Part shown: positions 7,013 through 25,376 of the stretch, piece after piece
How the letters are laid out: every line of letters begins with the position of its first letter
Numbering within the stretch: the first letter of the stretch is position 1
NCBI GenBank assembly: GCA_031292575.1
Contig: JARLGX010000009.1
Coordinates: 62,001 to 126,000, forward strand
Length of the DNA stretch: 64,000 bases
From: Paludibacter sp.
Lineage (GTDB): Bacteria > Bacteroidota > Bacteroidia > Bacteroidales > Paludibacteraceae
Reading direction: 5' to 3'
Notes under the pieces: generated by a model
What the model was told of the DNA's origin: nothing
The model's input: only the letters and a program-made list of their open reading frames with translations
Databases searched by the model: none
Made by a program: the position numbers and the translations under genes

Positions 7013-7579
7013 TCAATCATTATTTGGTTTGTAACTCAAAACAACTTTGCCACCCGGATAGAGCTTAGATTGTATGGGCGAAAATTTCTGTGTTCTGTCA
7101 AGTAATTTAAAAATTGACATACCGTTGCCTATAGCTACCGGGTTTACAATAAGATGATATTCGTCAATAAGCCCTTCCTTTATTAGTGACGAAACAAACC
7201 CTGCACCTCCATAAACAATAATGTCTTTCCCATTTTGTTTTTTCAAATTGGCAATCTCATCTGCAAGATTTCCTTTTGCCAAAGTGGTGTTGTTCCAGGT
7301 TGATTTGTCAAGTGTTTTGGTAAAAACAACTTTTGGAATATCAACCATTTTTTTTGCAAATAAATTGTCAGGATTGTTTCTGAAAGTATTCTCCCAATGA
7401 CTCACAAAGCCGTCAGCCATTTTTCTGCCAAGCAAAATAGTGTCCGACGAATCAATGAGGGAATTGATAAACTGCAAAAATTGGTCATCCGGATTCCAAG
7501 TCATCCAGTCCGCTTCTCCATTTGGACGGGCAACATATCCGTCTATGGACATTTGTATTTGTAATTTTACTTTTCTCAT
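7013..7579 (-). CDS. Dihydrofolate-reductase-fold protein (RibD C-terminal domain family)
   Basis: This 188-residue single-domain protein starts MRKVKLQIQMSIDGYVA, the usual opening strand of RibD-C/YwjB-type reductases, and carries ILLGRKMADGF and IIVYGGAGFVSSLI, the segments that form the NADPH site in this fold. Family members are predicted NAD(P)H-dependent reductases of small pterin- or pyrimidine-like substrates; the true substrate is unknown. A role in folate or riboflavin synthesis is unlikely, because the protein lacks the deaminase domain of RibD. An attC-like palindrome begins about 50 bases upstream of its start. Confidence 0.85.
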   Translation of the reverse strand: MRKVKLQIQMSIDGYVARPNGEADWMTWNPDDQFLQFINSLIDSSDTILLGRKMADGFVSHWENTFRNNPDNLFAKKMVDIPKVVFTKTLDKSTWNNTTLAKGNLADEIANLKKQNGKDIIVYGGAGFVSSLIKEGLIDEYHLIVNPVAIGNGMSIFKLLDRTQKFSPIQSKLYPGGKVVLSYKPNND

Positions 7580-21470: not shown

Positions 21471-22223
21471 TTAATTCTTTAATGATGCTATCTTTTTTAT
21501 TTCTTTCCAAAGGGCTTTGAAAGAAGTAGAAGCTTTTGAATTCGGACTGAATTCGATCAGAGGCTTTCTGTAAATGCCCATCTTCTCAACCTCAGCAAGG
21601 AATGGAATTGACGAATGACAAAGATTAGGTATATTCAGGTTAAGCTCTTTCATCGAGTTTTGATGGACAGATTTGCGGGTCTCTACCATTGATAGAAACG
21701 GTATAACAGACGATTTATCTAACTCATCTTCTTCAAAAAAAGTAATAATTTGTTCGTAAGTACGTAAACAAAGTGGAGTTGGCACCGTAGGAACAAGAAT
21801 ATAATCGCAGGCATGGAAAATATTTTCAGCCAATATGGAAATACCGGGAGGACAGTCCAGAAAAACAACTTCATAGTCCTTTTTCAATTCTTTCAACGCT
21901 TCACGGATTCTTTTTTTTGATTTCTTTGTCTGATCAAGAGTTGTATCCATGTGTCGATAGGAGAAATCAGAAGGAATAATATCAAGTTTGCGATAATCAG
22001 TTTCTGATATAATATCCCGTAACTCCACCTTACCGGTTATAATCTTTTTTAAACTGGCATCATTCCGTTGTTCTTTATCGTAGTAAAACGAAGAAGAACC
22101 CTGTGGATCAAGATCCCACAAAAGAGTTTTATATCCATCAAGACTCGATAGATAAGAGAGATTAACTGAGGTCGCGGTTTTGCCTACTCCGCCTTTGATA
22201 TTGTAAATACCAAATACTATCAT
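21471..22223 (-). CDS. parA: ParA-family ATPase
   Basis: This 250-residue P-loop ATPase has the deviant Walker A KGGVGKTATSVN (residues 10-21, with the signature lysine), Walker A' DLDPQGSSS and Walker B VVFLDCPPG. ParA proteins form ATP-dependent dimers on DNA and move plasmids, chromosomes or protein cargos when stimulated by a partner. No N-terminal DNA-binding domain is present, as in small type Ib and cargo-positioning ParAs. Its ATG overlaps the stop of a small coiled-coil gene by four bases (ATGA), so the two are translationally coupled and probably functional partners. Eight periodic palindromes lie upstream of the pair and may be the DNA site of the system. Confidence 0.9.
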   Translation of the reverse strand: MIVFGIYNIKGGVGKTATSVNLSYLSSLDGYKTLLWDLDPQGSSSFYYDKEQRNDASLKKIITGKVELRDIISETDYRKLDIIPSDFSYRHMDTTLDQTKKSKKRIREALKELKKDYEVVFLDCPPGISILAENIFHACDYILVPTVPTPLCLRTYEQIITFFEEDELDKSSVIPFLSMVETRKSVHQNSMKELNLNIPNLCHSSIPFLAEVEKMGIYRKPLIEFSPNSKASTSFKALWKEIKKIASLKN

Positions 22224-22567
22224 TTCGTTTCTTCGGGTGTTTCTACTTTCTCAACTTTTTGTTTTTTCCCTTTTTTTATGGACTTCTCCTTTTTTAGAGG
22301 TTTGTTTTTTAGCATTTTTTTCACAGTTTGAGCTAACTCCAGCATGACTGTTCGTTCCTGATTAAGATCGCTTTTTTTATTTCTCAATCTATCTTTCAGG
22401 GCAACTACTTCTTTTTCCAACTTCTCAATTTTACGCACTGATGTTTCAAGTGCTTTGATAGCTGACGTGTCTTGTCCTTTTTCGGATGAAATTTGTACAG
22501 ATGCTTTTAAGTTATTGACTGCTTCAACTGCTTCTTCAATGCTTTTTTTAGCGTTCTTCTTTTTCAT
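22220..22567 (-). CDS. Small lysine-rich coiled-coil protein, probable ParA partner
   Basis: This 115-residue, highly charged protein has heptad-like helices over residues 5-90 (IEKLEKEVVALKDRL) and a lysine-rich tail (KKEKSIKKGKKQKVEK). It has no ParB HTH, ribbon-helix-helix or CTPase motif. ParA partners in plasmid and cargo-positioning systems (for example ParG, McdB or PhaM-like proteins) are often small, charged and poorly conserved, so a partner role is inferred from the coupled gene order. The basic tail could bind DNA or polyphosphate. A helical N-terminus with basic residues might stimulate the ATPase. It heads the operon, 454 bases from the palindrome array. Confidence 0.7.
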   Translation of the reverse strand: MKKKNAKKSIEEAVEAVNNLKASVQISSEKGQDTSAIKALETSVRKIEKLEKEVVALKDRLRNKKSDLNQERTVMLELAQTVKKMLKNKPLKKEKSIKKGKKQKVEKVETPEETK

Positions 22568-23020
22568 AATACATATTTTTTATAGTTGATTTAAATTCCA
22601 ATAAAAAAGTGCTGTAAAGATAGTTATATTTTGAGAGTAATAGGACAAACTGATATAAATAAAATAGTTAGTTGAGAATATTCCCATCCCATCCTTCGAA
22701 CTCATAAACAGATAGTTTAAATGAAGCTTATATCGCACTCACGTTATGTTTTTCTTTGTCTGGAATTACTTGTTAACGCGAGATCACTTTTTGATTAGCT
22801 GTTTGAGAAAAACAGCATGCACCGAAGGAGTGTATCAACGCTGTTGAGAAATTCAGGTGTAACTTCATGGCTTATCTATTCCTGTTATCAGACAACCGAC
22901 ATACTCATATCTTTCAACAAACCGTGTTAGTATTCTATCAGATTACGCTGTTGGAATAACAGCTCGGGTTTATTTCCGAATAAGCCATACCACAAGTTTT
23001 TCAGAGTGAAAAGTTAGTGT

Positions 23021-23246
23021 AACAGTCATGACTATTAAAGTAACAGTCATGACTATTAAACTAAAAAAATGTAGCGATATGGTAATAGTAATGACTATTG
23101 AATGAATAGTCATTACTATTGGACTAAAAAGGCATATTGGAAGTATAATAGTTATGACTGTTAGAATATAAGTCATGACTATTTTACTGAAAAGACAGTT
23201 TGAAACAATAATAGTCATGACTGCTTAAATAATAGTCATGACTGTT
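23021..23246. repeat. Array of eight 16-bp palindromes with 21/42-bp spacing
   Basis: Eight copies of consensus AAYAGTCATGACTRTT start at 23021, 23042, 23084, 23105, 23147, 23168, 23210 and 23231. The steps are 21, 42, 21, 42, 21, 42 and 21 bases, so four pairs repeat with a 63-base unit, and after each pair an ACTRAAAA-like tract tends to follow. Spacings of two and four helical turns put all sites on one face of DNA. The array lies between the parA operon and the 23492 gene and is best read as a cooperative binding region, such as a centromere-like site or operator. The rest of the gap 22568-23491 holds no gene. Confidence 0.85.
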
Positions 23247-23426
23247 TTATAAAAATTGTAATACGGAGATATTTAATTACACTGTCAAATTACATTGATA
23301 CTGCTTGTTACAATAAAAAGTCAGATCAAGGCTATATTTATGCGATAGTTTACATTCGTATATCGTATTGATAAAACAATATTCAATTTTATTTATTAAA
23401 TAGTGTAAAATATCAAAATAGATTTT

Positions 23427-23435
23427 TATATTTGC
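23427..23435 (+). promoter_or_regulatory. -7 promoter box for the 23492 gene
   Basis: TATATTTGC matches TAnnTTTGY exactly and lies 57 bases before the gene; no TTTG box is found 19-21 bases upstream. AAGGAG at 23451-23456 is followed at 23468 by ATG-AAC-TAA, an in-frame two-codon leader, before the gene's own ATG. Confidence 0.55.
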
Positions 23436-23491
23436 AGTGCAATTCACTTAAAGGAGACTACTTATTTATGAACTAATAAAAAACTTTTGCT

Positions 23492-24199
23492 ATGCCTGAC
23501 CGATCGAGGATTCCCCGTTTAATCAGTACATTTAATCAGTACATCTTTAATACAAGTTCGTATCTCGCAGCCGGAACTCCAGTAAATAATGCTACCCGAC
23601 TGGGTTTGACTGAAGCAGAAGCAAACAGCTGGGCTAAACTGGCAGAGGAATGGAAACCACTCTTTAATCTGTACAGTAACAAAAAAATATCACGCACTGT
23701 GGCCATTAAAGATCAGTTAATGAATATAATCCGTAAAACAGTAGAGCTTGATCGAACTAATCATATTTTGACCCGGATTGGCGCTTCGACACAGGTTACC
23801 ATTGAGGATATGGGTATATTTCGGATTAAACAAGGGATGGGAACCAAGAGAAACCATACTATTCCACAAACCCCTATCAGTGAACAGGTATCGGTAACAT
23901 TACAACCGATTGGTGGTGGAATAATGCGGGTAAAATGTTATGGCACAAGTTCGGTACGGGCGGGTATTACCAGAAACGCCGACAGTGTTCAATTCCTTTA
24001 CCGCGTGGGCAAAACTCCCCCCACATCGGCTGATGAAGCCGGATTATCGAAAGACCTCTCGTCCAAAGCTATTTTTATGCTTTCGTTGGGTGCGGACAGC
24101 TCAGGCAATTATTTGTATATCTATTTCAGATGGTATAATATGCGGCATCCGAAACTGGCAGGTCCGTGGAGTTCTCTGAATATCACTGCTATTTTGTAG
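23492..24199 (+). CDS. Conserved Bacteroidota protein of unknown function
   Basis: This 235-residue soluble protein lacks a signal peptide. Residues 1-120 are helical (FNQYIFNTSSYLAAG, GLTEAEANSWAKLAEEW). Residues 130-235 form a beta-rich, fibronectin-like region ending YIYFRWYNMRHPKLAGPW. The same two-part layout is familiar from hypothetical proteins scattered through Bacteroidota and related phyla, but no role is known to me. It has its own -7 box and a strong terminator and faces the parA operon across the palindrome array, so it may share regulation with that operon. The start at 23492 is the first ATG after an in-frame stop. Confidence 0.8.
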   Translation: MPDRSRIPRLISTFNQYIFNTSSYLAAGTPVNNATRLGLTEAEANSWAKLAEEWKPLFNLYSNKKISRTVAIKDQLMNIIRKTVELDRTNHILTRIGASTQVTIEDMGIFRIKQGMGTKRNHTIPQTPISEQVSVTLQPIGGGIMRVKCYGTSSVRAGITRNADSVQFLYRVGKTPPTSADEAGLSKDLSSKAIFMLSLGADSSGNYLYIYFRWYNMRHPKLAGPWSSLNITAIL

Positions 24200-24221
24200 A
24201 AAATAAATTTTGATGAAAATG

Positions 24222-24260
24222 AATGCAACTATCCGCAGAAAAGGATAGTTGCATTTTTAT
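24222..24260 (+). terminator. Strong intrinsic terminator of the 23492 gene
   Basis: AATGCAACTATCC (24222-24234) pairs perfectly with GGATAGTTGCATT (24243-24255), followed by TTTATTG. Confidence 0.8.
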
Positions 24261-24298
24261 TGTACCACCTATATAAACCAAATTATCAGCTACAAAAT

Positions 24299-25267
24299 TT
24301 ATCTGTACGATCGTTCAATTTTATAGAGAGCTTCGCCATTGGCGTCCATAAACACTACACGAATACTGTCGCCATGAAAAGTAACTTCCGAAAAACCGGG
24401 GGCGGTATGACTGTAAATTGAGTGAGCATCCATGGAGCTTGGGCGTGGTTCGCCACCTGTGCCGGTAACAACATAATCAACATTCTTACCCTTTTCGCGC
24501 AAATGCTGAAAATCGTGGTCGTGACCGCAGAAATAGAATTGGGCATTGTACTTTTCGAGCAATGGTTTTACTTTACGTATCATATCGGGAGTATTGCCAT
24601 GTGTTTTGCTGGCTGAATAAACAGGATGATGCCCAAAAACAATTTTCCATTGTTCTTTTGAGTTTGCAAGTACATCATTCAACCATTTTATTTGTAGCGC
24701 CGAATCTTGTCTTGCAACGTCGGGATAACCTCCTTTTACGTGGTATTCTTTAATTAACGGTGGAGTATCCAAAAAAATTAAAAGTGCAGAGATAGAATCA
24801 TTCACTTTAGTAACCTTGGTATAATAATGAGCTTCCATGCGCCATCTACGACTCACGTTAGAATAATCTATCTCGGCCTGCGTGTTGCCTTTGTAATCGT
24901 GATTTCCCAGCACCGGATACCAATCGACCATTAGAGCTAAATTTTTATACACGTTTTCGAAACTATTTGTCCAGAGCGGGTCTTGTGTTGAAGCCACTCC
25001 CGCAACCTGAAAATTATCGCCACACGAAACAATAAATTGAGGATGTATTTTTTCAGCTTGCAATCCCATTTGGTTGGCTACAATTTGTTGGTCTTTAAAC
25101 CCGTTCCAACCCCAGTCGCTGATAACAAAGAAATTCAGGGCTCTTTTGTATTTTTTGAGCGTAATGGTTGATGCCGTACTTTCCGCTTTTGTCTTCTTCT
25201 TTGGTATTACTGCCATAAGCGTAAAAGCAGCAACCAGAAATACTACGATTAATTTGATTTTTTTCAT
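24299..25267 (-). CDS. Secreted purple-acid-phosphatase-like metallophosphoesterase
   Basis: This enzyme has 322 residues from the ATG at 25267, which gives a signal peptide (MKKIKLIVVFLVAAF); the longer frame to 25324 would bury it. It resembles type 5 tartrate-resistant acid phosphatases, with motifs SDWGWNG, CGDNFQVAGV, LGNHDY, FGHHPVYS and CGHDH supplying the two-metal site. The residue that is the metal-binding tyrosine in purple acid phosphatases (GDNFY) is glutamine here, so the metal content or activity may differ. It probably releases phosphate in the periplasm. It lies downstream of the YVTN gene in the phosphoesterase/receptor cluster and may be the last gene of that transcription unit. 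Confidence 0.85.
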   Translation of the reverse strand: MKKIKLIVVFLVAAFTLMAVIPKKKTKAESTASTITLKKYKRALNFFVISDWGWNGFKDQQIVANQMGLQAEKIHPQFIVSCGDNFQVAGVASTQDPLWTNSFENVYKNLALMVDWYPVLGNHDYKGNTQAEIDYSNVSRRWRMEAHYYTKVTKVNDSISALLIFLDTPPLIKEYHVKGGYPDVARQDSALQIKWLNDVLANSKEQWKIVFGHHPVYSASKTHGNTPDMIRKVKPLLEKYNAQFYFCGHDHDFQHLREKGKNVDYVVTGTGGEPRPSSMDAHSIYSHTAPGFSEVTFHGDSIRVVFMDANGEALYKIERSYR

Positions 25268-25376
25268 TGGAGTAGAACTTATATTAATGATATTATAAAT
25301 AACACCCATGACCTGCGCTTTCACTTGCCTGCCAGAGGTGTTATTCCGAACCTAACCTTAAAAACTATTTATCGTT

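Follow-up and report, generated by a model that had tools for sequence, protein, structure and literature searches.

A 21-bp-grid array of near-palindromes upstream of an orphan gene in Paludibacter sp., and family-typical array periods beside patchy multicopy genes of Bacteroidales

The window analyzed here, a stretch of 64,000 nucleotides from Paludibacter sp., contains an array of eight near-palindromic 16-bp sites, AAYAGTCATGACTRTT, at 23021..23246, to which no strand is assigned. To its left lie two minus-strand genes, encoding a parA-type ATPase (21471..22223, assigned by family searches) and its partner, a 115-aa lysine-rich protein judged coiled-coil-like by eye (22220..22567); we regard both as neighbors of the array that stand outside its system. 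To its right, a plus-strand gene for a protein of 235 aa, here called ORF235 (23492..24199), is followed by a metallophosphoesterase gene (24299-25273, assigned by Pfam). A putative promoter, TATATTTG at 23427..23434 on the plus strand, lies ~180 bp beyond the array end and 65 bp ahead of the ORF235 start, and it fits TAnnTTTG, which we take to be the Bacteroidetes -7 promoter consensus. Since this promoter-like box stands between the array and ORF235, the array is probably located upstream of the transcript.

The sites start at 23021, 23042, 23084, 23105, 23147, 23168, 23210, and 23231, so that successive starts are separated by 21, 42, 21, 42, 21, 42, and 21 bp and the sites themselves by gaps of 5 and 26 bp. 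The preliminary description of this DNA had reported eight palindromes on a 21/42-bp grid, forming four pairs in a 63-bp unit, and this array proved real in position and steps alike. Tandem Repeats Finder (TRF) assigned it a period of 63 with 3.8 copies, and the other three repeats of 63 bp show 67-71% identity when compared with the reference unit. On the 21-bp grid each unit comprises three slots, the third of which is degenerate; as read from the sequence, the first degenerate slot occupies 23063..23078 (no strand) and further ones start at 23126, 23189, and 23252, with ACTAAAAA-like sequence just ahead of or at these starts. The exact AAYAGTCATGACTRTT is present at three sites, four sites deviate by one mismatch and one by two. 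As 16-bp palindromes, all eight are imperfect, with symmetry at 12 or 14 positions, and the AGTCATGACT core is perfect at five. Allowing up to three mismatches, the window holds nine matches, including a single stray at 7363, versus a mean of 1.3 in dinucleotide shuffles of the window, and none of 100 shuffles equaled nine.

When the eight sites are compared pairwise, the 6+6 arms reach an identity of 0.86, the center 0.82, and the five following bases 0.45, a contrast somewhat overstated by the choice of sites by match and the exclusion of the degenerate third slots. Arms that are kept while spacers drift argue for two-fold symmetric, sequence-specific recognition of double-stranded DNA. Conserved arms with nonconserved 5-bp spacers are in keeping with the earlier proposal that bound dimers would line up on one face of the DNA, and related arrays keep the 21-bp steps. 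Throughout the 3.46-Mb genome (40 contigs), all seven sites with at most one mismatch fall within the array, and of four more with two mismatches one belongs to the array and three lie elsewhere; a reversed control pattern gave nine sites in the same genome. With the closest matches confined to the array and three two-mismatch sites elsewhere, nothing in this genome points to a regulon of single AAYAGTCATGACTRTT sites. No reading frame is open across all sites, and a coding repeat (21 bp being seven codons) was rejected. By its repeats, which are 16-bp sites separated by 5 and 26 bp instead of longer repeats with unique spacers, the array does not qualify as a CRISPR array.

The neighboring parA gene first suggested a centromere or an origin-linked array served by the parA/coiled-coil pair. 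The parS, parC, and parH centromeres of ParA-type partition systems consist of iterated sites for a dimeric protein near parA. The window resembles them in its iterated sites near a parA gene. The adjacency of array and pair and the 115-aa coiled-coil-like partner next to the ParA-type ATPase also speak for this reading, and a G040 array (C303) lies ~3.5 kb from a chromosomal parA/parB pair recognized by eye. Unlike in those systems, the pair is conserved without the array. The ATPase has matches at E<=1e-30 in 6 of 99 other genomes, and in all six the coiled-coil gene adjoins parA; the motif array accompanies the pair in none of them, two pattern scans found no motif site pairs anywhere in these six genomes, and the fetched surroundings of their parA pairs contain no 21-bp array of any kind. 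Conversely, the palindrome array recurs away from the pair, beside ORF235 homologs in other bacteria (G278 and Mariniphaga). These are the two observations that the preliminary description had named as making a partition role unlikely. The window is part of a 154-kb contig of a 3.46-Mb genome, and no plasmid record matched the array. A link of the array to parA is thus not supported, its adjacency to parA looks incidental, and the partition reading, largely refuted by the relatives, appears very improbable. Of the further suggestion, an operator shared by the divergent genes, a role as operator of the rightward gene may still hold. As an observation in its own right, a chromosomal pair of parA and a gene for a lysine-rich coiled-coil-like protein, like that at 21471-22567 of the window, occurs in 6 of the 99 relatives.

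Plasmid-origin iterons offer a second comparison. They are direct repeats of ~17-22 bp in helical phase, situated directly upstream of the gene for their binder. The window array shares with them helically phased repeats upstream of a gene; it differs in its chromosomal contig, multicopy occurrence, palindromic units, and a sequence that varies between loci of one genome. Neither ORF235 nor the coiled-coil protein matched a replication-initiator family in Pfam, NCBIfam, or PHROGs. With no initiator match among these neighbors, and with a fibronectin type III (FN3)-like C-terminal half in ORF235, an iteron-type origin was dismissed.

Two relatives, G031 and G022, carry the parA pair followed by the same metallophosphoesterase gene as the window, with neither array nor ORF235 in between. 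At 1.73 kb, the interval from the coiled-coil gene to the phosphoesterase gene of the window compares with ~0.86 kb (G031) and ~0.5 kb (G022), and the extra DNA of the window, containing both array and ORF235, extends over ~22880..24295 (boundaries by eye, no strand), without any target-site duplication noticed by eye at its edges.

Searches of Pfam, NCBIfam, and PHROGs assigned ORF235 to no family above cut-off, and no PDB relative was found; the sequence and structure searches run showed no likeness to a DNA-binding family or fold. An AlphaFold2 model built from five ORF235 sequences (mean pLDDT of 77.5, pTM of 0.44) predicts a helical N-terminal half, with helices to residue 109, and seven strands after residue 133, the C-terminal half resembling fibronectin type III and related beta-sandwich domains in Foldseek (TM by target <=0.72). 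PADLOC yielded no match for ORF235, two DUF6261 proteins (see below), or two other proteins flanking arrays, and one weak match for parA (E of 0.0028); a defense system was accordingly dropped for ORF235 and the other four array-flanking proteins. The family is patchy and multicopy. Homologs were detected in 9 of 100 genomes of the near set, including the own genome with four copies, in 9 of 295 genomes of the order-wide set, and, among 395 genomes drawn phylum-wide, in the own genome only. No ORF235 was found in plasmids, and none of 63 pattern stretches from viral contigs contained a relative.

The window palindrome itself recurs beside ORF235 homologs. In G278, from another family of the order, a AAYAGTCATGACTRTT array on 42-bp steps is situated directly upstream of an ORF235 homolog 54% identical to that of the window; this array was first met through the ORF235 search and then again by a DNA scan. 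When 295 genomes of the order were scanned for AGTCATGACT on 42-bp steps with at most two mismatches, four matched: the own genome (G000), G278, G166 with a 21-bp tandem array of a different unit, and G169 with a single chance-like match. A reversed control pattern matched one to three times in each of six of these genomes. Among these 295 genomes, arrays of the window palindrome are confined to G000 and G278, both within the nine ORF235-bearing genomes. G278 has in addition a second array (CATG type, contig C2), and the stretch read around it contains no ORF235 match. When genome contigs were scanned exactly, and without regard to genes, for a pair of AANAGTNNNNACTNTT sites at a distance of 21 bp, 28 stretches were obtained, about half of them without an array beyond the matched site pair. 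A profile search detected an ORF235 homolog in 4 of the 28, namely, two G040 contigs already found in an earlier pattern scan, a stretch of a Bacteroidetes metagenome-assembled genome (MAG; L074), and one of a Mariniphaga MAG (L086), in which AATAGTCATGACTTTT on 42-bp steps lies just 3' of the homolog. Sister arrays of AACAGT-RYRY-ACTGTT on strict 21-bp steps were found in the congeners G016 and G040. That of G016 has 15 sites and lies ~18 kb from the nearest ORF235 match. Those of G040 lie on four contigs, two of which have no ORF235 match (C303 and, near a contig end, C263); one array sits at a contig end, within an ORF235 homolog truncated on its 5' side, and a variant form is located upstream of a LytTR-ORF235 gene pair. 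Taken together, the array most likely goes with ORF235 rather than with parA, as far as the genomic contexts tell.

Also in G040, at and around L062 5606-6280, a gene that has a PNHFHLM motif and looks like one for a REP-associated (RAYT-type) transposase adjoins an ORF235 homolog; TCATCAGATGACTT...AAGTCATCTGATGA palindromes are repeated around this gene. Palindromic arrays were likewise seen in stretches that contain no ORF235 homolog. In four of six viral-contig stretches (L097, L098, L099, and L102), AAGAGT...ACTCTT palindromes follow each other in ~20-21-bp steps, and Spirochaetaceae and Treponema MAGs have 21-bp palindromic arrays of AAGAGTTATAACTCTT and AAAAGTTATAACTTTT (L080 5870-6200 and L091 1585-1700). 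Among the rejected matches, viral contig L043 has a tandem repeat of 21 bp that differs in sequence, and the blind-scan matches L087 and L100 read by eye as coding heptad repeats. Compared with phages, the window array gave one 32-base match (E of 0.3).

Arrays at ORF235 loci were scored as self-identity over 126 bp at lags up to 63-70, with a threshold of 0.60, at 40 loci, among them L041 (G098:C78, array present); a G098:C176 match without a locus and same-gene duplicates were excluded. An array with a best lag of 21, 42, or 63 was present at 23 of the 40 and one with lag 41 at none, 17 loci, including three of the four in the own genome, remaining without an array at this threshold. An ORF235 homolog with such a 21/42/63-bp array within ~1.5 kb is found in the window and at 23 of the 40 loci in all. 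Unit sequences vary between the loci, and by inspection the type of array does not correspond to overall ORF235 identity. The control DNA comprised 80 stretches (1.303 Mb) from eight of the ORF235-bearing genomes, free of ORF235 homologs. Clusters with a lag of 21/42/63 numbered 36 in this DNA; another 24 clusters had different lags, which in nine cases was 41. Against 3.56 arrays expected, 18 were present at the 28 ORF235 loci whose genomes had supplied control DNA (Poisson, 4.7e-8). The expected number is raised by coding repeats left in the control DNA and by the choice of its stretches by hand, at contig starts or round coordinates, repeats being possibly commoner there. Arrays with a 21-bp grid are common in these genomes, yet about five times enriched at ORF235.

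This abundance raises the question whether the arrays are neutral minisatellites, with slippage amplifying units of 20-21 and 41-43 bp and the resulting arrays coming to rest in the wide gaps between patchy genes. The 36 and 24 clusters (lag 21/42/63 and other lags, respectively) in the 1.30 Mb of control DNA, arrays without an ORF235 or DUF6261 gene, and the contig-end array of G040 that is fused to a 5'-truncated ORF235 homolog speak for this explanation. Against it stand palindrome arms that persist while spacers drift, the same 16-mer in three bacteria with unlike spacers, and an array period that depends on the gene family; we hold it to be a rather unlikely alternative. A documented element of similar kind is BrickBuilt of Porphyromonas gingivalis, a minisatellite MITE with 23-nt units of one shared sequence, a leader, and a tail (PMC4596501). 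BrickBuilt and the window array are both intergenic tandem arrays in Bacteroidales with many copies per genome; the arrays described here differ in their period of 21 or 41 bp, their locus-specific units, and their position beside particular gene families (PMC4596501). Because units are locus-specific and the motif array of the window is unique in its genome, we rejected a BrickBuilt-like MITE, a judgment made on the units.

Palindromes are weak in many ORF235 arrays, and weaker there than in DUF6261 arrays (see below), with p<0.1 in 6 of 24 units versus 0 of 14 arrays elsewhere, and palindromicity as a rule for all ORF235 arrays was therefore abandoned. The neighbors of 32 of the 36 control arrays were inspected by eye, and 12 arrays flank 200-350-aa proteins of unknown function (control stretches L134, L141, L146, L159, L190, L191, L200, L202, L206, L207, and L212), some with a beta-sandwich-like C-terminal end. 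The neighbors include three members of one family (alignment A3), two DUF6261 proteins, and a group with one member above the cut-off for a carboxypeptidase-regulatory-like domain; an FN3-like label for the flanking families is weak, as the Pfam cut-off was passed only by L207 (carboxypeptidase-regulatory-like) and the two DUF6261 proteins. Comparison by hhalign showed no homology among ORF235, DUF6261, and two other flanking families (pairs A1-A5 and A3-A5 excluded), leaving common ancestry of the flanking proteins unsupported. Arrays with a period of 20/60 bp in G098 and G211 (L132 13840, L142 16964, and L192 8064) are perhaps a third period class with a gene family of its own.

Among 198 genomes of the order, 20 carry DUF6261 (PF19775), with up to 18 matches listed per genome. 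At 30 DUF6261 loci (L233-L262), the best lag was 41 in 17, 43 in one, and 42 in four, and eight had none; the 17 lag-41 arrays compare with 0.70 expected. A DUF6261 profile detected seven homologs in the control DNA, five with a 41/42-bp array directly upstream (L151, L202, L210, L212, and L156, the last being the same locus as L262), one without (L216), and one cut by the stretch start (L196). A looser scan, with no shuffle calibration and kept outside the statistics, detected upstream arrays (lag 41-43) at 24 of 25 DUF6261 genes, with a median gap of 141 bp. The sole DUF6261 gene found in plasmid records, that of WP_004367630.1 in Prevotella nigrescens FDAARGOS_1486 (NZ_CP082843.1), has a lag-41 array of 0.94 identity at its annotated start, with a unit containing TGCCGA-NNN-TCGGCA. 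The DUF6261-like frames of two short, unannotated phage-collection records (MT839608.1 and MT837725.1) have no array. Set against each other, 23 ORF235 arrays have a period of 21/42/63 and none of 41, and DUF6261 arrays have a period of 42 only in four cases and of 41 in 17 (Fisher, 8.7e-9). Array sequence is specific to the locus, and array period, 21/42/63 bp for ORF235 and 41 bp for DUF6261, to the family.

DUF6261 palindromes, too, vary from locus to locus. Palindrome statistics covered 15 of the 17 lag-41 arrays, whose start and copy number were chosen by eye. In 10 of the 15 the consensus unit contains a palindrome with p<0.05; mean identity between copies is 0.86 in arms and 0.72 in spacers, arms exceeding spacers in 13. 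Many arrays combine arms with variable centers, as would hairpins that act as RNA or single-stranded DNA and for which pairing ability alone matters. Since 58 arm changes are one-sided and four compensatory, sequence recognition is favored over mere hairpins; no Rfam family scored above cut-off, so that no known RNA family covers the array, which moreover precedes the promoter-like box of ORF235. We thus consider a hairpin function improbable.

The array might instead be the operator of a LytTR- or LuxR-type regulator with sites two helical turns apart, as such regulators are encoded beside several ORF235 paralogs: the seven flanking regulators tested comprise three LytTR, three LuxR (GerE), and one AraC-type domain. 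LytTR operators consist of two or three 9-bp direct repeats, ~21 bp apart, and like the window sites they lie two helical turns apart on one face. Unlike them, the window has eight sites, which are palindromes instead of direct repeats, and the type of regulator varies between loci. A LytTR gene stands beside some ORF235 paralogs, and none was among the frames tested at the window array, where the five larger frames within ~2 kb (dehydrogenase, parA, coiled coil, ORF235, and phosphoesterase) have neither a LytTR nor a LuxR domain. This explanation seems unlikely as well.

At roughly even odds (a probability of about 0.5), we favor the array as a platform for a dimeric, sequence-specific protein that would act on ORF235, and as one case of a wider arrangement in Bacteroidales. 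What we observe is the array, its absence at parA in six relatives, its occurrence together with ORF235 homologs, the relation of period to family, and the conservation of arms; what we infer is protein binding, a dimeric state, and regulation. The eight sites would be bound cooperatively by the putative dimer on one helix face upstream of ORF235: at 10.5 bp per turn, 21 bp correspond to two helical turns and would place adjacent dimers on the same face, and the 41-bp period of DUF6261 arrays is close to four turns. The simplest form of action would be that of an operator or upstream activating region of ORF235. Speaking against this reading are the ORF235 loci without an array, the abundance of 21-bp arrays in these genomes, the weak palindromes of many ORF235 arrays, the Mariniphaga array 3' of its gene, and the AACAGT-arm arrays that also occur without a nearby ORF235 match. 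Array and ORF235 would form a module, which is absent between the parA/coiled-coil and phosphoesterase genes of the two relatives. As the palindrome changes between loci within a genome, the binder should be encoded at the locus, which makes the product of the adjacent gene, here ORF235 itself, the simplest candidate; for ORF235 paralogs, an adjacent LytTR, LuxR, or AraC regulator would be another. The wider arrangement would consist of patchy multicopy genes for proteins of ~235-310 aa, many beside an array with a locus-private palindrome and a family-typical period.

It is tempting to go further and to speculate, though we find this doubtful, that in a number of Bacteroidales families with patchy, multicopy genes (ORF235, DUF6261, and others) every gene encodes a reader of its own locus-specific palindrome, with a spacing fixed by the family, yielding mutually orthogonal DNA addresses. 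We know of no counterpart to a chromosomal set of such addresses. Searches of the open-access literature, which leaves most subscription papers and all preprints outside its scope, found no account of arrays at DUF6261 or of 21-bp palindromic arrays in Bacteroidales, and DUF6261 is named in one paper on another subject. Judged against this literature, the novel part is the relation between family and period; the window array alone is modest.

If the pattern holds, it may become a source of orthogonal protein-operator pairs. It would raise testable questions, such as whether each paralog reads its own array and which benefit a bacterium draws from several private addresses on one chromosome. 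Many orphan proteins would then be accompanied by a DNA ruler whose period is fixed and whose sequence is private, giving a first functional handle on DUF6261, annotated as of 'unknown function', and on the ORF235 family, which is absent from databases.
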